Assembly: GCA_023957755.1 (NCBI GenBank)
Contig: JAMLGT010000006.1
Span: 62,001-126,000 of the forward strand
Direction: 5' to 3'
DNA from: Chitinophagaceae bacterium
Lineage (GTDB): Bacteria; Bacteroidota; Bacteroidia; Chitinophagales; Chitinophagaceae
DNA: 64,000 nucleotides
Below, piece after piece: positions 2,897 through 16,832 of this stretch (position 1 is its first letter; each line of letters begins with the position of its first letter). The notes below the pieces were generated by a model that searched no databases, was not told where the DNA came from, and saw nothing but the letters and a program-made list of their open reading frames with translations. The translations under genes and the position numbers were made by a program.

Positions 2897-3949
2897 TTAT
2901 ACTGCTTGATTTTCAGGACGTAAATTTCTCACTGACTTCCCTGCCTGCCACATTTCGCTTTCGCGCAATTCTTTCAATTCTTCGTTTAAGTGTACACGAT
3001 AGTCGCTCTTGCTATTACTTTCAATTGACTTAGCCGCTTCTTTCCCTTCAGCCACGCTCTTGTACAACTCATCAAACACCGGCAAGGTAGCATCCCTGAA
3101 CTTTTTCCACCAATCAAGCGCACCGCGCTGTGCAGTAGTAGAGCAGTTGGCATACATCCAGTCCATTCCGTTTTCTGCTACCAACGGCATCAGCGATTGG
3201 GTTAGTTCTTCCACTGTTTCATTAAATGCTTCGCTGGGTGAATGGCCGTTCTTTCTAAGGGTCTCGAACTGAGCCGCAAAAATTCCCTGAATGGCGCCCA
3301 TCAGTGTGCCCCGCTCACCTGTGAGGTCGCTATACACTTCTTTCTTGAAAGTAGTTTCAAATAAATAGCCCGAGCCGATGGCAATACCCAGTGCCACTAC
3401 CCTGTCAAATGCTTTTCCGGTTGCATCCTGATAAATCGCATAACTACTGTTCAACCCGCGCCCCTGCAGAAACATTCTGCGCAATGAGGTGCCACTCCCT
3501 TTAGGGGCTACCAGAAATACATCTACATCAGCGGGAGGTACAATCCCCGTCTGATCGTTGTAGGTAATTCCGAACCCGTGAGAGAAATACAATGCCTTAC
3601 CCGCTGTAAGATACTTTTTCACCAAAGGCCACAATTCTATCTGCGCAGCATCACTCAGTAAATAGCAGATTATAGTGCCACGCTGTAAAGCCTCCTCAAT
3701 TTCAAATAAATCTTTGCCCTCGACAAAACCGTCAGCAACGGCCTTATCCCAGCTCTTAGAATTCTTACGCTGTCCCACAATCACATTGATACCATTATCT
3801 CTCTGGTTCAATGCCTGCCCGGGTCCCTGCACACCGTATCCGATTACTGCTACTACCTCGTCTTTCAAGACTTGTTGTGCTTTTGATAACGGGAATTCAT
3901 CACGTGTGATTACATTTTCTTTAGTGCCTGCAAAATCAAGTACTGCCAT
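2897..3949 (-). CDS. ilvC: Ketol-acid reductoisomerase
   Basis: Second common step to valine and isoleucine: Mg2+-dependent alkyl migration and NAD(P)H reduction of acetolactate or acetohydroxybutyrate. The Rossmann motif is 'VIGYGVQGPGQALNQRDNG' near residue 35, and 'VAPKGSGTSLRRMF' belongs to the catalytic region. The C-terminal knotted helical domain begins around residue 195, with the metal-ligand acidic segment 'YSDLTGERGTLMGAIQG'. At 350 residues it is a class I (short) enzyme. It sits between ilvN (36-bp gap) and ilvA (5-bp gap) in one transcription unit. Whether NADPH or NADH is used cannot be decided by eye. Confidence 0.96.
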   Translation of the reverse strand: MAVLDFAGTKENVITRDEFPLSKAQQVLKDEVVAVIGYGVQGPGQALNQRDNGINVIVGQRKNSKSWDKAVADGFVEGKDLFEIEEALQRGTIICYLLSDAAQIELWPLVKKYLTAGKALYFSHGFGITYNDQTGIVPPADVDVFLVAPKGSGTSLRRMFLQGRGLNSSYAIYQDATGKAFDRVVALGIAIGSGYLFETTFKKEVYSDLTGERGTLMGAIQGIFAAQFETLRKNGHSPSEAFNETVEELTQSLMPLVAENGMDWMYANCSTTAQRGALDWWKKFRDATLPVFDELYKSVAEGKEAAKSIESNSKSDYRVHLNEELKELRESEMWQAGKSVRNLRPENQAV

Positions 3950-3985: not shown

Positions 3986-4570
3986 TTATAATGAGAATAC
4001 AGACTGGTCTTCGGGAATAGAATTAATCTCGAAGTTTTCAGCCGGTTGTTTCCTTTCGAATTCCTTTACTTTTTCATGGAATCCTGTGCTCTTCTTGATG
4101 ATAGCCACTCTGGCTCCACGCACGAACTCTATTAGTCCGAATGGTTCGAAAAACTTCACCAACCGATCGATCTCCTCACGATGGCCTGTTGCCTCAAACA
4201 CGATATAATCTTTGCGAATAGCGATAGCCCTTGCACCATATTCATGCAATAGCCTCTCCACTTTCACTTTCTCGGTAATACTGTCTGATGGCACTTTAAA
4301 GAGTCCCATCTCCTGCCAGATTACTTCTTCTTCAGTATGAAAATAGGCTTTAAGCACATCTACCTGTTTCTCAATTTGACGTACTAATTTCTGTACTGCT
4401 TCATGGGTTTCCTGAATGACAATTGTAAACCGGTGAATTCCCTGCACCTCAGAAGGCGCAGTATTCAGGTATTCGATATTGATTTTCCTGCGGGAAAAAA
4501 TATTAGCCAAACGTCCAACCATTCCCACCCTGTCCTCGGTGTAAACGGTGATAGTATATTCCTGTTTCAT
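3986..4570 (-). CDS. ilvN: Acetolactate synthase small (regulatory) subunit
   Basis: Regulatory partner of IlvB that gives valine feedback inhibition. Residues 1-80 are an ACT domain ('YTITVYTEDRVGMVGRLANIF'), the site of valine binding in this family. Residues ~95-165 form the C-terminal activation domain ('ATGHREEIDRLVKFFEPFGL'). The 194-residue length fits the IlvH/IlvN two-domain form with a short extra tail. It follows ilvB after 20 bp, as expected for subunits made together. Confidence 0.94.
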   Translation of the reverse strand: MKQEYTITVYTEDRVGMVGRLANIFSRRKINIEYLNTAPSEVQGIHRFTIVIQETHEAVQKLVRQIEKQVDVLKAYFHTEEEVIWQEMGLFKVPSDSITEKVKVERLLHEYGARAIAIRKDYIVFEATGHREEIDRLVKFFEPFGLIEFVRGARVAIIKKSTGFHEKVKEFERKQPAENFEINSIPEDQSVFSL

Positions 4571-4590: not shown

Positions 4591-6333
4591 TTATGACAAT
4601 CTGATTTCTGATACGCTGCATCCCTGTGGCACCATGGGGAATACGTTGTTTTCTCTACCCACTTTCACTTCCAATAGATAGGATCCTTCATGCTTAACCA
4701 TTGCTTCAAGGGCTGCCTTAAGTTGATCTCTTTGTTCCACCCTTGCAGAGGTAATATCATACGCGGAGGCCAACTTCACAAAATCAGGACTCTCAATATC
4801 GGTGAAGGAATATCTGCGTTGCATAAACAATTCCTGCCACTGACGCACCATTCCCAGATAGTGGTTATTAAGAATTAAAATTTTTACACCGATATTATTC
4901 TGCATGATGGTACCTAACTCCTGAATAGTCATCTGAATACCTCCATCACCTACTACTGCAATAACTTCTCTTTCAGGTGCGCCCAGTTTGGCTCCAATTG
5001 CGGCTGGCAGTCCAAAACCCATAGTACCCAATCCTCCACTGGTTACATTACTCTTACTTTTTGTAAACTTCGCATAACGGCAGGCTACCATCTGATGCTG
5101 GCCCACATCGCTCACAATCACTGCATCACCACCGGTAATTTCATTCAATATCCTAACCACCTCACCCATGCTAAGCACATCGGTCTCCGGGTACAACTCT
5201 TTTTTGATGCATACTTCATCCTCCTTTTTAGCAAGCTCCTTAAACTGAGCCACCCATTCCGTATGCTTCTTTTCCTCTATGAGCTTTGTCAGCATAGGGA
5301 GCGTTTCTTTGCAGTCGCCCCAAACTGGTACATCTGCCTTTACATTCTTATCAATTTCGGCAGGGTCAATATCCAGATGCACTACTTTAGCCTGTTTAGC
5401 ATATTTATCTAACCTACCGGTTACACGGTCATCAAACCGCATCCCCACTGCAATCAGCACATCACATTCATTAGTCATCACGTTGGGTGCATAGTTGCCA
5501 TGCATACCCAGCATACCTACAAATAAAGGATGATCAGAGTCTAAGGCGCTGAGTCCTAGTACAGTGCTACCTGCAGGCAGGTTTCCCTTTTCGATAAAGG
5601 CTTTAAACTCTTTCTCGGCATTTCCCAGTATCACACCCTGACCAAATATTACCATCGGTTTCTTTGCCGCATTAATCAGTTCAGCTGCCTGCTCCACATA
5701 TTCCTTGCGCACTACAGGTTTCGGACGATAACTGCGGATATGTTCGCACTTCTCGTAGGCAAAGTCAAACTCCTGCACCTGCGCATTCTTGGTAATATCA
5801 ATCAGTACAGGGCCCGGCCTTCCGCTGGCAGCAATATAGAATGCCTTGGATAACACCGCAGGTATTTCTTCTGCATCTGTAATCTGATAGCTCCACTTTG
5901 TCACAGGAGAAGTAATATTGATAATATCTGTTTCCTGAAATGCATCTGTACCTAATAACGGGGCAAACACCTGACCTGTGATACACACTACCGGTGTGCT
6001 GTCAATCATTGCATCAGCAAGGCCGGTTACCAGATTCGTAGCACCCGGGCCGCTGGTAGCCAATACTACCCCTGTTTTACCACTTACTCTTGCGTACCCC
6101 TGAGCTGCATGCACTGAGCACTGCTCGTGACGCACCAGAATATGTTTTAACGGGTCATTGTAATGATACAACACATCATAAAGTGGCATAATTGCACCTC
6201 CCGGATATCCGAAAAGGGTTTCTACTCCTTCTTTCAAAAATATTTCGAGAATAGCTTCCGACCCTGACACCCTGCGTGTCGTAGTAGTATTTTGAGTAGT
6301 CTTTGTATCTGTTTCCTGAATTGTTTCACTCAT
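4591..6333 (-). CDS. ilvB: Acetolactate synthase large (catalytic) subunit
   Basis: ThDP- and FAD-dependent enzyme that condenses pyruvate with pyruvate or 2-oxobutanoate. The three ThDP-enzyme domains are seen in order. The Pyr domain carries 'FGYPGGAIMPLYDVLY' with the catalytic Glu in 'VRHEQCSVHAAQGYAR', then 'ATSGPGATNLVTGLADA'. A central FAD/transhydrogenase-like domain follows, with 'GLSALDSDHPLFVGMLGMHG'. The PP domain carries the ThDP/Mg motif 'VVGDGGIQMTIQELGT...NN'. The length of 580 residues is usual. The first ~20 residues are a Thr/Gln-rich tail before the conserved start 'VSGSEAILEIFLKEGVE'. It lies between ilvD (20-bp gap) and ilvN (20-bp gap). Confidence 0.97.
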   Translation of the reverse strand: MSETIQETDTKTTQNTTTTRRVSGSEAILEIFLKEGVETLFGYPGGAIMPLYDVLYHYNDPLKHILVRHEQCSVHAAQGYARVSGKTGVVLATSGPGATNLVTGLADAMIDSTPVVCITGQVFAPLLGTDAFQETDIINITSPVTKWSYQITDAEEIPAVLSKAFYIAASGRPGPVLIDITKNAQVQEFDFAYEKCEHIRSYRPKPVVRKEYVEQAAELINAAKKPMVIFGQGVILGNAEKEFKAFIEKGNLPAGSTVLGLSALDSDHPLFVGMLGMHGNYAPNVMTNECDVLIAVGMRFDDRVTGRLDKYAKQAKVVHLDIDPAEIDKNVKADVPVWGDCKETLPMLTKLIEEKKHTEWVAQFKELAKKEDEVCIKKELYPETDVLSMGEVVRILNEITGGDAVIVSDVGQHQMVACRYAKFTKSKSNVTSGGLGTMGFGLPAAIGAKLGAPEREVIAVVGDGGIQMTIQELGTIMQNNIGVKILILNNHYLGMVRQWQELFMQRRYSFTDIESPDFVKLASAYDITSARVEQRDQLKAALEAMVKHEGSYLLEVKVGRENNVFPMVPQGCSVSEIRLS

Positions 6334-6353: not shown

Positions 6354-8039
6354 TTAAAATTCATCTGTTACACATCCTTCAGAAGCATTGCTCACCGTCC
6401 TGGCATATTTATAAAGCACTCCTGATGAAACCTTTAATTGGTGAGGAACCGGATGTTTTTGTTGCCTCTCTTTTATTACTTCGTCACTTACCTGAAGTGT
6501 AAGTTTATTATTTACTGCATCAATCTCAATGATATCATCATCTTCAACCCATGCTATAAGCCCTCCCTCATAGGCTTCAGGAGTGACGTGTCCGACGACG
6601 AATCCGTGCGTACCCCCACTAAATCGTCCATCAGTAATCAGGGCTACGGTATTTCCCAATCCGGCACCGATAATTGCAGAAGTAGGTTTCAGCATTTCAG
6701 GCATTCCGGGTGCACCTTTCGGCCCTACATTCTTAATCACTACCACATCGCCGGGTTTTATCTGATGCGAATTAATTCCCTCTATCAGATGGTGTTCGCC
6801 ATCAAATACTCTTGCCGGTCCCACAAACTTTTCACCTTCTTTTCCGGTAATCTTTGCTACGCTTCCAAGAGGAGCCAGATTTCCATAAAGTATCTGCAGA
6901 TGCCCGGTCGGCTTTATAGGGTCTTCAAAAGAGTGTACAATTTTTTGAGTTTTAAAATCCAACTCCTTTACATCTGCAAGATTCTCTGCAATGGTCTTCC
7001 CTGTCACTGTCAGACAGTCTCCATTCATCTTTCCACGATTCAGCATATACTTCATTACTGCCGGTATGCCTCCATGCTCATGAAGGTCCTGCATCAAATA
7101 CTTACCGCTTGGTTTAAAATCGGACAACATGGGTGTTACATCACTGATCCGCTGAAAATCTTCCTGTGTAACAGATATGCCTACACTTTTTGCCATTGCA
7201 ATCAGGTGAATCACCGCATTGGTTGACCCGCCCAATACCATTATCAGTTTGATAGCATTTTCAAATGCTTCCTTAGTCATAATGTCGCGTGGCAGGATAT
7301 TCTTTTCAAGGAGATTTCTCATGGCCCTTCCTGCATCATCACACTCTTTTCTTTTCTCAGGACTGATTGCAGGATTACTACTTGAGTAAGGGAGGCTCAT
7401 TCCTAATGCTTCAATTGCGGAAGCCATAGTATTCGCCGTGTACATACCACCACAGGCACCCGGTCCCGGACAACTGTGCCTCACGATCCCATGAAAATCC
7501 TGTTCTGATAAGTGGCCTGAAATCTTCTGCCCCAATGCCTCAAATGCTGATACAATATTCAGGTCTTGCCCCTTATAATGTCCAGGCGCGATCGTTCCGC
7601 CATACACCATCAAGGACGGACGGTTCAGCCTGCCCATAGCTATCAGCGCCCCGGGCATATTCTTGTCACATCCCGGCACAGCGATTAACCCATCATAATA
7701 CTGTGCACCACAAACAGTTTCAATCGAGTCGGCAATTACATCACGACTGACTAAAGAGTAACGCATGCCATCTGTGCCATTACTCATACCATCGCTCACA
7801 CCAATGGTGTTAAAAATCAATCCCACCATACCATGATCCCATACTGACTTTTTCACCTCAGCCGCCAATCCGTTCAGATGCATATTGCAAGTATTTCCAT
7901 CGTAGCCCATACTTACGATACCCACCTGCGCTTTGTTCATATCCTCATCTGTGAGTCCAATTCCATAAAACATAGCCTTTGCTGCAGGTTGTGTTTCATC
8001 CTGAGTAAGGGTCTTGCTGTACCTGTTAAGTTCGCTCAT
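6354..8039 (-). CDS. ilvD: Dihydroxy-acid dehydratase
   Basis: Fe-S enzyme that dehydrates 2,3-dihydroxy-isovalerate or -methylvalerate to the 2-oxoacids. Cluster cysteines are visible in 'NTCNMH', '[12 protein letters not shown]' and '[17 protein letters not shown]', and the substrate region in '[19 protein letters not shown]'. At 561 residues it is full length for the IlvD/Edd family. Its start codon overlaps the ilvE stop by 4 bp (ATGA type), which suggests translational coupling. The cluster type (2Fe-2S or 4Fe-4S) is not decided here. Confidence 0.96.
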
Positions 8040-8959
8040 TGTAATGCCTCCAGTTTATCTTTTACTAAATACTTATTATTCGAAAAATTTTCTCTCACTA
8101 AATCTTTATATGCTTCCTGAATCTTTGCCCCAAGGCTTTCATTCCAAGGCTTCGGGAAGGGATTCTTATTCACTGAAGCAATTCCAATTACTTCTGCTGC
8201 CGTACCACAGAAGAATGCACTATCTGCTGCAAACAAATCTTCAGTAGTAACTAGCTTTTCCTCCACCTTGATATTCATTGTATTTGCTAATTCTATTACG
8301 GTTGCTCTTGTAATTCCAGGCAGAATATTTCCAAGTGTCGGAGTTACCAGTCCCCCATTTTTCTCCAGAAAAATATTTGCACCCGGCGCTTCTGCCACAT
8401 AACCATCCATATCGCAGAGAAGGGCTTCATCAAATCCTTGTGCCTTAGCCTCATAACTTGCCAGGATAGAGTTCACATAGTGCCCACATGCTTTTGCTTC
8501 TATTCTGAACCCTTTAGGGTTTGGTCTTTGAAAGGAAGAAAGGAACACAGACACCAGTTTCTCTCCCAGGAAAGGCTGCATGGGCCAGGTCTCGATTACA
8601 ATATGTGAATACTCATTTGGATTGAATCCCATGTTGGCAGGTGCATACACCAAAGGCCTGATATAAGCTTCCTTGTGTCCATTGCGGCGCAATACTTCGT
8701 AGCTCGCATCTATCAATTGTGCTGTCGTCCAGGTGTAGGGAAGGTTTAATAACTGAGCGGAACGCTTCAACCGATCAAAGTGCTCCACTGCCTTAAAAAT
8801 TTTTGTAGCGCCTTCTATTGTTTCGTAAGCCCTGATCCCTTCAAATACACCATAGCCATAGTGAAGCGTCTGTCCATATAGATGAGTGGTCGCTTCGGCT
8901 GCTTTCAGGAATTCGCCATCACGGTAAACAAAAGTGTGCTGATCAAAATAATTTGCCAT
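8036..8959 (-). CDS. ilvE: Branched-chain amino acid aminotransferase
   Basis: Fold-type IV PLP transaminase that performs the last step of valine, isoleucine and leucine synthesis with glutamate. '[21 protein letters not shown]' holds the PLP lysine, '[15 protein letters not shown]' is the class IV signature, and '[19 protein letters not shown]' binds the phosphate. The 307-residue length is normal. It is the first structural gene after the leader region at 8981-9101, so any attenuation there would control the whole ilvE-D-B-N-C-A unit. It overlaps ilvD by 4 bp. Confidence 0.96.
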
Positions 8960-8980: not shown

Positions 8981-9009
8981 AAAAAACCCGCCTCGGCAGG
9001 AGGCGGGTT
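8981..9009 (-). terminator. Attenuator terminator in the ilv leader
   Basis: On the minus strand AACCCGCCTC and GAGGCGGGTT (8985-8994 with 9000-9009) form a perfect 10-bp stem with a 5-nt loop, followed by TTTTTT. It lies between a promoter plus leader peptide and the ilvE start, 22 nt before the ilvE ATG. The RNA segment CCTCCTGC at 8996-9003, which spans the 5' arm and loop, is a perfect complement of GCAGGAGG at 9037-9044 in the last codons of the leader peptide. This gives a mutually exclusive antiterminator. Confidence 0.88.
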
Positions 9010-9032
9010 CTTAAATACGTTTAACGATTCAA

Positions 9033-9101
9033 CTATCCTCCTGCATACGTGGCCGGCACAATAATGACAATAGCAATAATAACTATGGCTATCACATTCA
9101 T
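9033..9101 (-). CDS. ilv operon leader peptide, Ile/Val-rich (attenuation control)
   Basis: An ATG at 9101 opens a 22-codon frame that ends in TAG at 9033. Residues 3-15 read VIAIVIIAIVIIV, so the peptide has 7 Ile and 4 Val in 22 codons and no Leu. It starts about 45 nt after the predicted transcription start and ends 23 nt before the terminator stem. The last codons, Ala-Gly-Gly-stop, contain GCAGGAGG, which can pair with the terminator's 5' arm. A ribosome stalled at the Ile/Val codons would leave that segment free to block the terminator; a ribosome at the stop codon would cover it. This is the arrangement of classical ribosome-mediated attenuators such as enterobacterial ilvL. That it works this way here is inference. 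Confidence 0.85.
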   Translation of the reverse strand: MNVIAIVIIAIVIIVPATYAGG

Positions 9102-9153
9102 TACGTCAATTATTTGTCTGCCTTTTTGCACGATTCAGAATTGAATTGAGCAG

Positions 9154-9183
9154 CAAACATACAATTGTTGTCTAAAAAACAAA
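9154..9183 (-). promoter_or_regulatory. Bacteroidota-type promoter for the ilv leader and operon
   Basis: On the minus strand TATGTTTG (9154-9161) matches the -7 consensus TAnnTTTG exactly, and TTTG (9180-9183) matches the -33 element, with an 18-bp spacer. Transcription should start near 9147, which gives a short untranslated stretch before the leader-peptide ATG at 9101. The stretch 9184-9325 upstream, back to leuB, shows no gene or strong terminator, so some leuB read-through into the ilv genes is possible. Confidence 0.7.
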
Positions 9184-9325: not shown

Positions 9326-10438
9326 CTAAATAATCGTCACGTGACCCATCCGGATATTGCGCTTATTAATCTTTACCGGTAATTCATTAGCCACATATTC
9401 TGCCATCAAATCACCCACAGTAGAGGTGAAATAAAAATTTATACTGTCAATATCTCTTGTTACAAATCCATTCTGCATCGTCCAGTCCACAGCCTCTCTT
9501 ATCAAAGCAGCTTCCTCATGAGCTTTGAAGTGATCCAGCATCATTGCTGCAGAAAGAATAGTACCCAGCGGATTAGCAATATCCTTACCGGCAGCCTGTG
9601 GATATGAACCATGGATAGGCTCAAACAAGGCTTTATTCCCAATTGAGCTTGATGGCAGCAGACCCAGAGATCCGCTGATGACACTTGCCTCATCGCTCAG
9701 GATATCGCCAAACATATTCTCTGTAAGGATGACATCAAACTGAGATGGATTCAGAATTAACTGCATTGCCGCATTATCTACAAACAGATAATCCACCTTC
9801 ACCTCAGGATACTGCGACTGAATCTCCTGTACTGTGCTTCTCCATAAACGGGAGGTCTCCAGCACATTAGCCTTATCCACCAGTGTCAGCTTCTTTCTCC
9901 TCAGCAAGGCAGCTTCAAATGCCAGATGCGCTACGCGCTCGATCTCGTACCTGTGATAGGTACACTCGTCAGATGCGATCGTACCTTCCTCATTCAGTTT
10001 CTTCTCCCCAAAATAAATTCCTCCGGTCAGCTCTCTGTATATCACCATATCCGTATTCTCTGCATGCTTCTCTTTAATGGGCGACAGGTGTCGCAGAGCT
10101 GCATACGTCTTAACCGGCCGGATATTGGCATATAACCCCAATGCCTTGCGCAACTGCAAAAGTCCTTGCTCAGGCCGCACTTTGGCAGCCGGATTATTAT
10201 CATATTTCGGGTCTCCTATTGCACCCAGCAGAATCGCGTCTGACTCCAGCGCAGCGTTAACAGTGTCGCCTGGCAGCGGCACGCCCGTCGCGTCAATTGC
10301 ACAGGCACCCATTAGTTTATTGTCAAATTCAAATCGATGCCCAAACCTTGAAGCCACCGCTTTCAATACTTTAACGGCTTCCCGGGTAACTTCAGGGCCG
10401 ATCCCATCGCCCGGAATCACTGTTAACTTCTTCTCCAT
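9326..10438 (-). CDS. leuB: 3-isopropylmalate dehydrogenase
   Basis: NAD+-dependent oxidative decarboxylation of 3-isopropylmalate, the third leucine-specific step. The protein begins 'KKLTVIPGDGIGPEV'; 'LTENMFGDILSDEASVISGSLG' holds the metal-binding aspartates; 'EPIHGSYPQAAGKDIANPLGT' is the NAD site. The ATG at 10438 is preferred because it sits just before the conserved beta strand. A TTG at 10471 would add a lysine-rich tail not typical of the family. The gene overlaps the end of the upstream ABC ATPase gene by 47 bp, so the two are tightly coupled. Confidence 0.95.
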   Translation of the reverse strand: MEKKLTVIPGDGIGPEVTREAVKVLKAVASRFGHRFEFDNKLMGACAIDATGVPLPGDTVNAALESDAILLGAIGDPKYDNNPAAKVRPEQGLLQLRKALGLYANIRPVKTYAALRHLSPIKEKHAENTDMVIYRELTGGIYFGEKKLNEEGTIASDECTYHRYEIERVAHLAFEAALLRRKKLTLVDKANVLETSRLWRSTVQEIQSQYPEVKVDYLFVDNAAMQLILNPSQFDVILTENMFGDILSDEASVISGSLGLLPSSSIGNKALFEPIHGSYPQAAGKDIANPLGTILSAAMMLDHFKAHEEAALIREAVDWTMQNGFVTRDIDSINFYFTSTVGDLMAEYVANELPVKINKRNIRMGHVTII

Positions 10439-11861
10439 AATGTATGATTTCTTTAATTTTTCCTTTTTCAATATGAATCCGTCCCGTTATCCCTTCGGGA
10501 ATTTCGTCCTCATGATGTGTAACACAGATCAATGTCCGCTGCGCATTCAAACACTCCTGTGCAATGAAACTCACTGCTCTGGCTCTGAACATCTCATCCA
10601 GCCCCTGTCCGGGCTCATCCAGTATCAACAGTACAGGGTTCTTCACTACCGCTCTTGCAATCAGCGACCAACGTTGCATGCCATGCGACAATTGCCAAAA
10701 AGCCCTGCCGGCATATTGCTCAAGCCCAAACAACGTCATACATGTTTCAGTTTGTAGCCGTTGCGAATCACTCAGCTTTCTGAAAAGCCCTATCGTGTCA
10801 AAGAGTCCTGAGGCTACCACATTAAAAACAGATTGTGACCTGTCAAAATATTGATGCACCTCCGGTGAAACAAAGCCAATCTTCTTCTTAATCTCCCAAA
10901 TTGATTCTCCACTACCCTTTCTCCTGTCAAACAAATAAATCTCATTTGCGAAAGCTTGCGGATTGTCTGCAGTAATCAGGCTCAACAGGGTTGATTTTCC
11001 GGATCCGTTTGGCCCTGTCAGGCACCACTTTTCTCCCTTCTTCACTTCCCATGAGACATTGTCTAATATCAGCCTGTCTCCATACTTTACATTCACATTC
11101 TTCATTCGCACAGCAAACTCAAACTCCAAATCGTCTGCCACCGGTAGTCTGGAAAGATCTATATCCCCACTGGCTATATGCTTCCTGTTGCCAAACTTCA
11201 GATATTGCTCACGTGTGAACACTCCTGTTAGTATCCCTTTATCCAGCTCACACACATGAGTAAAAAAGTCCGGCAGATACTCTCTTTCCACCATAATCAC
11301 ACTCACCCCCTTGTGTTTCAAATCCTTTATAATCCTCTCCAGCATTAAACGCGCATGTGCATCAAGGCCCGTAAACGCATTATCCAGCAATAACCACTCA
11401 GCATTATGTGCCAATGCTTTGGCAATCTGAAAACGTTTATGCTCGCCATTACTTAACTGAAGCAATGGTTCATCTTTCAAATAGCTTATTTCCATCAATT
11501 CCAGTGCCCTCGTCGCATCTGCTTCACCTACCTCTTCCACCAAATCCTCCCAAACTGTTCTACAATCTGAGGATTCAGTGGCGTTGAATCGCTGCTGATA
11601 GTAAAAGTTACTTATCCCTGAGAGGTTTTTAAATTCATGCTGATGGGTTATGAGTTTTACCACAGGCTCAGATCCGTCTGCAAACCTGATGGTTCCTGTA
11701 AAGGACTTATACTGTTGAATACAGCGAAGCAGGGTAGATTTGCCACTACCAGATGCTCCTGTAATCACCCAGCACTCACCTTTCCGAATTCCTAAAGAGA
11801 TATCCTTCAGCACATAAGCTCCAGATTCTCTGTATGACAGTCCGGAAATCTCCAGCAACAT
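10392..11861 (-). CDS. Duplicated ABC ATPase, ModF/PhrA-like, inside the leu operon
   Basis: Two ABC nucleotide-binding domains in one 489-residue chain with no membrane segments. Domain 1 has Walker A 'GASGSGKST' (residues 35-43), signature 'LSNGEHKRFQIAKAL' and 'WLLLDNAFTGLD'. Domain 2 has Walker A 'GPNGSGKST' near 275, signature 'LSHGMQRWSLIARAV' and Walker B 'LLILDEPGQGLDE'. Domain 1 has Asn at the usual catalytic Glu position of Walker B ('LLLDNAF'), so that site may bind ATP without normal hydrolysis. Length and layout match E. coli ModF, a cytosolic protein of unclear role. It lies 18 bp after leuD and overlaps leuB by 47 bp, so it is a leucine-operon member. No transporter partner is nearby, and the function is unknown. 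Confidence 0.85.
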   Translation of the reverse strand: MLLEISGLSYRESGAYVLKDISLGIRKGECWVITGASGSGKSTLLRCIQQYKSFTGTIRFADGSEPVVKLITHQHEFKNLSGISNFYYQQRFNATESSDCRTVWEDLVEEVGEADATRALELMEISYLKDEPLLQLSNGEHKRFQIAKALAHNAEWLLLDNAFTGLDAHARLMLERIIKDLKHKGVSVIMVEREYLPDFFTHVCELDKGILTGVFTREQYLKFGNRKHIASGDIDLSRLPVADDLEFEFAVRMKNVNVKYGDRLILDNVSWEVKKGEKWCLTGPNGSGKSTLLSLITADNPQAFANEIYLFDRRKGSGESIWEIKKKIGFVSPEVHQYFDRSQSVFNVVASGLFDTIGLFRKLSDSQRLQTETCMTLFGLEQYAGRAFWQLSHGMQRWSLIARAVVKNPVLLILDEPGQGLDEMFRARAVSFIAQECLNAQRTLICVTHHEDEIPEGITGRIHIEKGKIKEIIHYGEEVNSDSGRWDRP

Positions 11862-15086: not shown

Positions 15087-15251
15087 GCATTCATTTTTAT
15101 TAGGCGATAAAGAATTGATTGAATTATCTTCGAAATTAATTTTACTCTTACGAGATACGGAATCTTATTTAGGGAATATTACACTGTTTAAACAGGCCAA
15201 AATCCTTTGAAAGTACCGTGAACACTAGTGTTCCGTACAAATAATTTTACG

Positions 15252-16832
15252 ATGCCCAACAAATCAACCGATACCCTGTTTCAACTGATTCACTCCCTCG
15301 AAAAGTCCGAAAAACGGAATTTTAAGCTTTATATCAAAAGGAACACCTCAAAGGGCGACCTGAAAATCATTACCCTTTTTGATGCTATAGACAGGCTGGC
15401 CACCTACGATGAGGAGGCTATTCTCAGAAAAAACCCTTCAATTTCCAAACAACAACTGCCTAATCTCAAAGCCCATCTCTACCGTCAGATTCTCATTAGC
15501 CTGGGATTATTACAGAATAGCACCACAAGTGATTTTCAGTTTTTTGAGCAGTTGGAGTTTGCAAAAATTTTATATCGGAAAGGCCTGTTCCACCAGAGCC
15601 TTCGGATTCTTGATAAGATTAAGGATGCAGCCAGGGAGGCACATCAAATCCCTATCCTCATCGCAGTACTTGAAGAAGAAAAACGAATTGAATATCTGCA
15701 CATAACCCGTAGTTCGGCCGACAGAGCCACAGTACTCACTTCCGAAGTGAAGGAAGCCGCCATCCGGTATCACAAACAGACAAGACTCGGCAACCTGGCT
15801 TTACAACTATATGGCTGGTATATCAAAAACGGGATCGCCAGCAACGCCAAAGCCGAAAAAGAAATATCTACCTTCTTTAAGGAACAACTGACAAACGATC
15901 TAAGGCGTCCCGAAGGATTCTACGAACAACTCTATTATTACCAATCTTACTGCTGGTACGCGTACATCCGGCAGGAGTTTCTGATGTATTACAGATACTC
16001 CAAAAAATGGACAGAAGTATTCTACGACTATCCCGAAATGTTTTCTATTGAAACAGAGAACTTCCTGAAAGGAATGCATAACCTGCTGAATGCCCACTTT
16101 AACCTTCGCAATTTTGACGGTTTTAAAAAGTCTCTTGAAGATTTTGAATCTTTCGCGATATCCTCCCCGGCAATCCAGGACGAAAATACCAGAATTCAGA
16201 CATTCGTCTATTTGTACACCGCACGAATTAATAAGCATTTTCTGGAAGGCACTTTTGAAGAAGGCATCCGCCTCATACCTGATATTGTAAACCAGCTCGA
16301 CCAGTACGAATTGATACTCGACAAACACCGCACACTGGTATTTTACTACAAGATAGCTTCACTCTACTTTGGAGCCGGACAATATGGAGAGGCCATCGAC
16401 TACCTCAACAAGATTATCAACTGGAAGGTGAACCTCAGAAGTGATTTGCAGTGCTACTCCCGGTTGCTCCATCTCATCGCACACTATGAGTTAGGTAACT
16501 TCACTCTCCTGGAATACCTGATTAAGTCCGTGTACCGGTTTATGGCAAAAATGGAAAACCTGTCGAAGGTAGAAGAGGCTATGTTTGGATTCCTCAGAAG
16601 ATCATTTCACATCTCCAAAAAAGAAATCAAATCTGAATTTGCAAGGCTGCTTAATGAGTTAAAGACAATGGAATCCGGAAAATTTGAAACAAGAGCCTTC
16701 GCTTATCTGGATATCATATCCTGGCTTGAGAGCAAGGTATATAACAAGCCGGTAGCCAGCATCATCCGTAAAAAATACATCGAAAAGAAAAGGTTTGACA
16801 AAATTACTGCCCCGACAACTGACCACTCTTAA
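15252..16832 (+). CDS. Conserved hypothetical protein, helical TPR-like
   Basis: A cytosolic protein of 526 residues with no signal peptide or membrane segment. It is rich in Leu, Tyr, Lys and Glu. Helical pairs such as 'KGLFHQSLRILDKIKDAA' and 'FGAGQYGEAIDYLNKIIN' resemble tetratricopeptide repeats. The N-terminus 'TDTLFQLIHSLEKSEKRNFKLYI' is a distinct block. I do not recognise a catalytic motif, and function is unknown. A scaffold or regulatory role is only a guess from the repeat-like helices. The ATG at 15252 is preferred over a GTG at 15228. It is divergent from leuA and converges with the metalloprotease gene, overlapping it by 29 bp at the 3' ends. Confidence 0.75.
   Translation: MPNKSTDTLFQLIHSLEKSEKRNFKLYIKRNTSKGDLKIITLFDAIDRLATYDEEAILRKNPSISKQQLPNLKAHLYRQILISLGLLQNSTTSDFQFFEQLEFAKILYRKGLFHQSLRILDKIKDAAREAHQIPILIAVLEEEKRIEYLHITRSSADRATVLTSEVKEAAIRYHKQTRLGNLALQLYGWYIKNGIASNAKAEKEISTFFKEQLTNDLRRPEGFYEQLYYYQSYCWYAYIRQEFLMYYRYSKKWTEVFYDYPEMFSIETENFLKGMHNLLNAHFNLRNFDGFKKSLEDFESFAISSPAIQDENTRIQTFVYLYTARINKHFLEGTFEEGIRLIPDIVNQLDQYELILDKHRTLVFYYKIASLYFGAGQYGEAIDYLNKIINWKVNLRSDLQCYSRLLHLIAHYELGNFTLLEYLIKSVYRFMAKMENLSKVEEAMFGFLRRSFHISKKEIKSEFARLLNELKTMESGKFETRAFAYLDIISWLESKVYNKPVASIIRKKYIEKKRFDKITAPTTDHS

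Follow-up and report, generated by a model that had tools for sequence, protein, structure and literature searches.

A putative ribosome-mediated transcription attenuator ahead of the ilvEDBNCA operon in a member of the family Chitinophagaceae

The region between leuB and ilvE of a Chitinophagaceae bacterium very probably (with a probability of about 0.93) carries a ribosome-mediated transcription attenuator of the ilvEDBNCA operon. The window, that is, the whole stretch of DNA analysed, was 64,000 nucleotides long (contig JAMLGT010000006.1, positions 62,001 to 126,000), and the whole element was located on its minus strand. The parts of the element, their order, pairing potential, covariation, spacing and conservation were established from the sequences. 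Leader-peptide attenuation is a textbook mechanism, classic in enterobacteria, and gene control in the phylum Bacteroidota is poorly known. Here, covariation, spacing and conservation across dozens of loci back the full attenuator design, and several matching leaders are found in one genome. The ilv leader constitutes a searchable family for annotators, and translation-transcription coupling in Bacteroidota becomes directly testable.

The operon is encoded on the minus strand. Its first gene is ilvE, for a branched-chain aminotransferase (8036–8959; NF005146 and TIGR01122 above cut-off), followed by ilvD (6354–8039), ilvB (4591–6333), an ilvN-like gene (3986–4570), ilvC (2897–3949) and ilvA (1617–2891). 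The genes ilvD, ilvB, ilvC and ilvA scored above the NCBIfam cut-off; the ilvN-like gene, with no match at E 1e-40, was named from its position and its ACT-type sequence. According to the list of open reading frames, the gaps within this six-gene ilvE-D-B-N-C-A operon are of about 40 bp at most, and the genes jointly span the Ile/Val pathway. The terminator is located 21 bp ahead of the ilvE start (8959). In the neighbouring leu cluster, a double ATP-binding-cassette protein is encoded between leuD and leuB (10392–11861, minus strand), and its end overlaps the listed start of leuB. No leader was evident by eye upstream of leuA in the window (15087–15420).

The promoter is of the Bacteroidota type. 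The -33 element TTTG (9180–9183, minus strand), situated inside conserved AGTTCTTTG, is separated by an 18-bp spacer from the -7 element TATGTTTG (9154–9161, minus strand; consensus TAnnTTTG). The TTTG/TAnnTTTG layout was matched at most aligned leaders, and the TA..TT columns of the -7 box were invariant in 30 loci. At locus L013, the -7 box is surrounded by an 11-bp inverted repeat, TTGAAGGATGT...ACATCCTTCAA, with weaker forms in some relatives. As a general operator such a repeat was rejected, the mean longest arm being 4.8 versus 4.5 in shuffled sequences.

The leader peptide frame (9033–9131, minus strand) was read from a GTG start as 32 codons plus stop, MQKGRQIIDVMNVIAIVIIAIVIIVPATYAGG, with the stop codon TAG at 9035–9033. 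From ATG 9101–9099 it reads as 22 codons, MNVIAIVIIAIVIIVPATYAGG, 7 of them for Ile and 4 for Val, and it is open upstream of this ATG as far as GTG 9131–9129, from which 9 Ile and 5 Val are counted (14 of the 32 residues). The frame probably starts at the GTG, since MQKGRQIIDVMNVIAIVIIAIVIIVPATYAGG fits its relatives in length, in the pattern of its N terminus and in the distance of its start from the promoter. The 22-codon reading, which corresponds to the 3' part of the longer frame, is probably truncated. Homologous frames of 27–36 codons, mostly 31–35, were found at 42 loci and share the N-terminal pattern (e.g. MLNNRIHSIISAITVIIIVVVIIIPATPGGGHCM). The GTG is placed 22 nt past the -7 box, a distance of 14–25 nt in most relatives. 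The putative regulatory Ile/Val codon tract (9057–9095, minus strand) corresponds to residues 13–25 of the 32-residue frame, VIAIVIIAIVIIV in translation, and the last Val codon begins about 15 nt ahead of the antiterminator strand. With regard to codon choice, 64 of 221 Val codons were GTC in the leaders of 48 ilv loci, versus 14 of 293 in the ilv/leu genes of the window; this excess may reflect a rare codon preferred in the regulatory tract or a constraint on the GTCATTATT nucleotides.

The intrinsic terminator (8981–9009, minus strand), which is found in the same place in relatives, consists of a 10-bp stem formed by AACCCGCCTC (9009–9000) and GAGGCGGGTT (8994–8985), the 5-nt loop CTGCC, and a T-run at 8986–8981, whose first two T close the stem. 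The antiterminator 5' strand, region 2 (GCAGGAGG, 9037–9044, minus strand), is located at the end of the leader frame and is the perfect 8-bp complement of 9003–8996. This last segment is region 3, the antiterminator 3' strand (CCTCCTGC, 8996–9003, minus strand), comprising the top 4 bp of the terminator 5' arm and four loop bases. The terminator had a fold energy of -18.3 kcal/mol (z -5.2) and the antiterminator one of -17.9 kcal/mol (z -5.0), and in neither case was the value equalled by any of 200 shuffles. Since the antiterminator of the window overlaps just 4 of the 10 terminator pairs, fewer than in most relatives, it may release the terminator less effectively.

A preliminary description of this DNA had reported the promoter (TTTG, 18-bp spacer and -7 box), the GCAGGAGG/CCTCCTGC pairing and the terminator, and on re-reading of the minus strand all these coordinates and pairings proved correct. 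It had also given a small frame of 22 codons with 7 Ile and 4 Val; the position and composition read as given, and the start was revised, probably to GTG 9131 with 32 codons. Its term "compact" was not retained: at 32 residues, the IlvL peptide of Escherichia coli is just as long, and the element does not stand out as compact.

To compare the element among relatives, 149 Chitinophagaceae genomes were searched with IlvE and the best 30 ilvE loci were selected. An Ile/Val-rich frame of 27–35 codons, an antiterminator strand at its end and a terminator ahead of ilvE were present at 29 of these 30 best loci, and the observation is thus more than chance. The typical terminator of the family is AACCCGCCTC...GAGGCGGGTT-U6. 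In the sole exception among the 30 (L017), ilvE is located directly after leuB, without a leader. Further copies were sought with a covariance model of the ilv leader, and within the family they were detected directly ahead of ilvD (L034, L043, L046 and L049) and, in one case, ahead of an ACT-domain protein (L038). Outside the family, covariance matches with E above about 1e-4 were mostly bare terminators, and were counted only when accompanied by an Ile/Val frame and an ilv-type gene. The statistics were calculated on 42 loci, 40 of them from the family of the window, plus L031 (titled Chitinophagaceae) and L033 (titled Sphingobacteriia); L022, a near-copy of L021, was left out.

Operons are commonly followed by terminators, and about 145 bp separate the promoter from the end of leuB, which is encoded upstream on the same strand; the hairpin might accordingly be taken for nothing more than the terminator of the preceding leu operon, with the small frame an accidental hydrophobic ORF. 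This is very improbable, however, because a conserved promoter separates leuB from the small frame and because the frame is kept at 42 loci, some of them without a preceding leuB (L050 follows leuA, and L051 and L054 have no leu gene upstream). Moreover, a leuB terminator has no need of pairing at fixed spacing with a short Ile/Val frame.

Such pairing was found throughout. In each of the 42 loci, region 2, at the end of the frame, forms a duplex with region 3, in the 5' arm and loop of the terminator; the mean duplex energy was -16.7 kcal/mol (weakest, -11.1) versus -8.5 ± 3.3 for shuffled region 2. The pairing was better than that of the locus's own shuffles at p < 0.05 in 40 of the 42, and the regions' own partners were stronger than permuted ones in 5000 of 5000 trials. 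Most relatives pair GGAGGTGG:CCGCCTCC, and the window and its nearest relatives pair GCAGGAGG:CCTCCTGC, one codon further down. Paired changes were detected in L011 (AGAGGAGC:GCTTCTCT) and in L015 (TGAGGTGG:CCGCCTCA), in which the peptide has already ended before that strand, as well as in other families, namely GAAAGGCC:GGCCTTTC (L075), AGGAAG:CTTCCT (L057) and GCGAGG:CCTCGC (L054).

Measured from its first nucleotide, the last Ile/Val codon is located at a median of 15 nt upstream of region 2 (13–16 nt at most loci), which is about the footprint of a stalled ribosome, and the placement of the regulatory codons is therefore fit for attenuation. With such a footprint, a stall at any Ile/Val codon would leave region 2 free, and a ribosome at the stop codon would cover it. 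With a stalled ribosome, 46 of 48 loci folded into the antiterminator; with a ribosome at the stop codon, all 48 folded into the terminator. When the whole leader was left free, nearly all loci favoured the terminator as the more stable fold; since this holds once region 4 has been made, the switch must depend on the order of folding during transcription. The classic E. coli attenuators likewise depend on it. Taken together, the comparison within Chitinophagaceae supports the Ile/Val attenuation proposed in the preliminary description: relatives were examined for a loss of the frame or of the pairing, which was not found; instead, the frame, its Ile/Val codons, the pairing, the spacing and the terminator proved conserved, with paired changes in divergent loci.

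According to the proposed mechanism, RNA polymerase would initiate at the promoter (TTTG/TATGTTTG), and a ribosome would start to translate the 32 leader codons. With Ile- or Val-tRNA in short supply, the ribosome would stall within the Ile/Val tract with its leading edge just short of region 2; the free region 2 (GCAGGAGG) would then pair with the emerging region 3 (CCTCCTGC), the terminator would be broken up and transcription would enter ilvE. If Ile and Val were plentiful, a ribosome at the stop codon would mask region 2, the 10-bp terminator would form and transcription would end at the U-run. We infer the translation of the frame, the stalling of the ribosome when Ile or Val is short, and the effect on read-through from the features described above.

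Comparable leaders were found at chosen loci of the same genome. Ahead of hisG (L081, nt 1172–1300), a His leader, MYLITLHHHHHHSCIQAS, is accompanied by the terminator AACCGTCTGAAAAATCAGGCGGTT, and its antiterminator pairing reached -12.9 versus -5.0 for shuffles, with 0 of 1000 shuffles as good. A Phe/Tyr-rich leader, MNKTKAHNWFYFSYFFSFYFSNSRDRLVVR, and a terminator are located ahead of pheA (L084); AGCCGGGAT within this frame copies the terminator 3' arm, and the antiterminator pairing was -16.8 versus -6.9 for shuffles (p 0.001). Ahead of trpE (L085), a WWW leader, MKVQNTYNSWWWQTMKTIVP, and a terminator were present, and the antiterminator pairing at this locus was no better than that of shuffles (p 0.4). 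On the minus strand of L086 (nt 1060–1190), a ThrL-like frame, (GTG)SILHNITITTTGITRKGM, reading ITITTTGIT, was observed ahead of an aspartokinase/homoserine dehydrogenase gene; no clear terminator was found for this frame.

In other families of the class, model matches fell on His-, Phe/Tyr- and Thr/Ile-rich frames (L059, L076, L061, L065 and L069), followed by genes that by eye were named hisG, pheA and aspartokinase. Two further loci of other families, L063 and L071, have Tyr-rich frames (NNYYYYH and CYYYGF) and terminators ahead of phenylalanine 4-hydroxylase-like genes, also named by eye; this enzyme is encoded by a catabolic or tyrosine-making gene rather than by a classic biosynthetic operon.

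The peptide is hydrophobic and conserved, and it has a P-x-x-GG tail, features that would also suit a functional small protein (a membrane peptide or toxin-like), co-transcribed with ilvE, whose expression the terminator merely tunes. Nevertheless, what is conserved is the Ile/Val content and the GGAGG nucleotides and not a fixed peptide, the L015 peptide stops before GG with the nucleotide pairing retained 3' of its stop codon, and His-, Phe/Tyr- and Trp-rich counterparts precede the matching operons of the same genome, so that a protein function of this kind is most unlikely. An RNA switch binding a protein or metabolite (riboswitch, T-box or target of a binding protein) with an incidental ORF is scarcely credible either, for although such switches also end in a terminator/antiterminator pair, no Rfam family was matched at threshold and the leader RNA beyond the frame amounts to just about 20–40 nt, poorly conserved, AT-rich and too small for an aptamer.

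Beyond the ilv attenuator, we consider it an even bet that amino-acid operons (ilv, his, phe, trp and perhaps thr) are generally controlled by leader-peptide attenuation across Bacteroidia, and that this control uses an RNA family of its own, absent from Rfam, in which the antiterminator strand of Chitinophagaceae would be a perfect Shine-Dalgarno-like GGAGG(T). If this were true, such a strand, hazardous in most bacteria, may be tolerated in a phylum that is not reliant on Shine-Dalgarno pairing.

With respect to previously described systems, Vitreschak et al. (2004, in FEMS Microbiol Lett) reportedly mention attenuators in Bacteroidetes. In a survey of 2010, no leader-peptide attenuators were known outside Proteobacteria and Actinobacteria (PMC2965389). 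The transcriptome of Flavobacterium psychrophilum, from the same phylum and another family, gave strong clues for leader-peptide attenuation ahead of amino-acid operons, including structured 5' elements before pheA and hisG that are conserved in Flavobacteriaceae and have no Rfam matches; the main text of that article names no ilv element (PMC9723704). In the map of Bacteroides thetaiotaomicron, small ORFs reminiscent of amino-acid leader peptides were noted (PMC7366714). The Bacteroid-trp RNA (Rfam RF01692), a candidate cis-regulatory RNA of Bacteroidetes (PMC2864571), differs from the ilv element in operon and motif, and RF01692 had no match in the window. Rfam was searched at gathering and relaxed thresholds, and the leader families remained below the gathering threshold (Thr_leader, 23.7 versus 55 bits; Phe_leader, 17.7 versus 55; Leu_leader, 14 versus 50). 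The Chitinophagaceae ilv element was found neither in Rfam nor in the literature searched; its kind is known, and the element itself seems to be uncatalogued.

The closest parallel is the ilvGMEDA attenuator of E. coli, with its leader peptide IlvL (PF08046/NF007744). The window peptide did not match the Pfam family IlvGEDA_leader, PF08046 (best relative 15.2 bits, cut-off 25), nor NCBIfam NF007744 (best relative 10.5 bits, cut-off 59). In view of this lack of profile-detectable homology, tested for IlvL, the likeness of the leaders to the enterobacterial IlvL, HisL and ThrL peptides suggests convergence on one solution, although about 30 low-complexity residues are too few to decide between homology and convergence with E. 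coli IlvL. Unlike the ilvGMEDA attenuator, the element described here has a Bacteroidota-type promoter and a simpler leader, which has one antiterminator helix and no evident 1:2 protector hairpin, and its leaders, unlike IlvL, contain few Leu codons, the window peptide having none. On the other hand, both systems share a 32-codon Ile/Val-rich leader peptide, a terminator placed ahead of the first gene for Ile/Val synthesis and a mutually exclusive antiterminator/terminator pairing, and the VVVIIIP-like core of E. coli IlvL is also present in many relatives of the window peptide.
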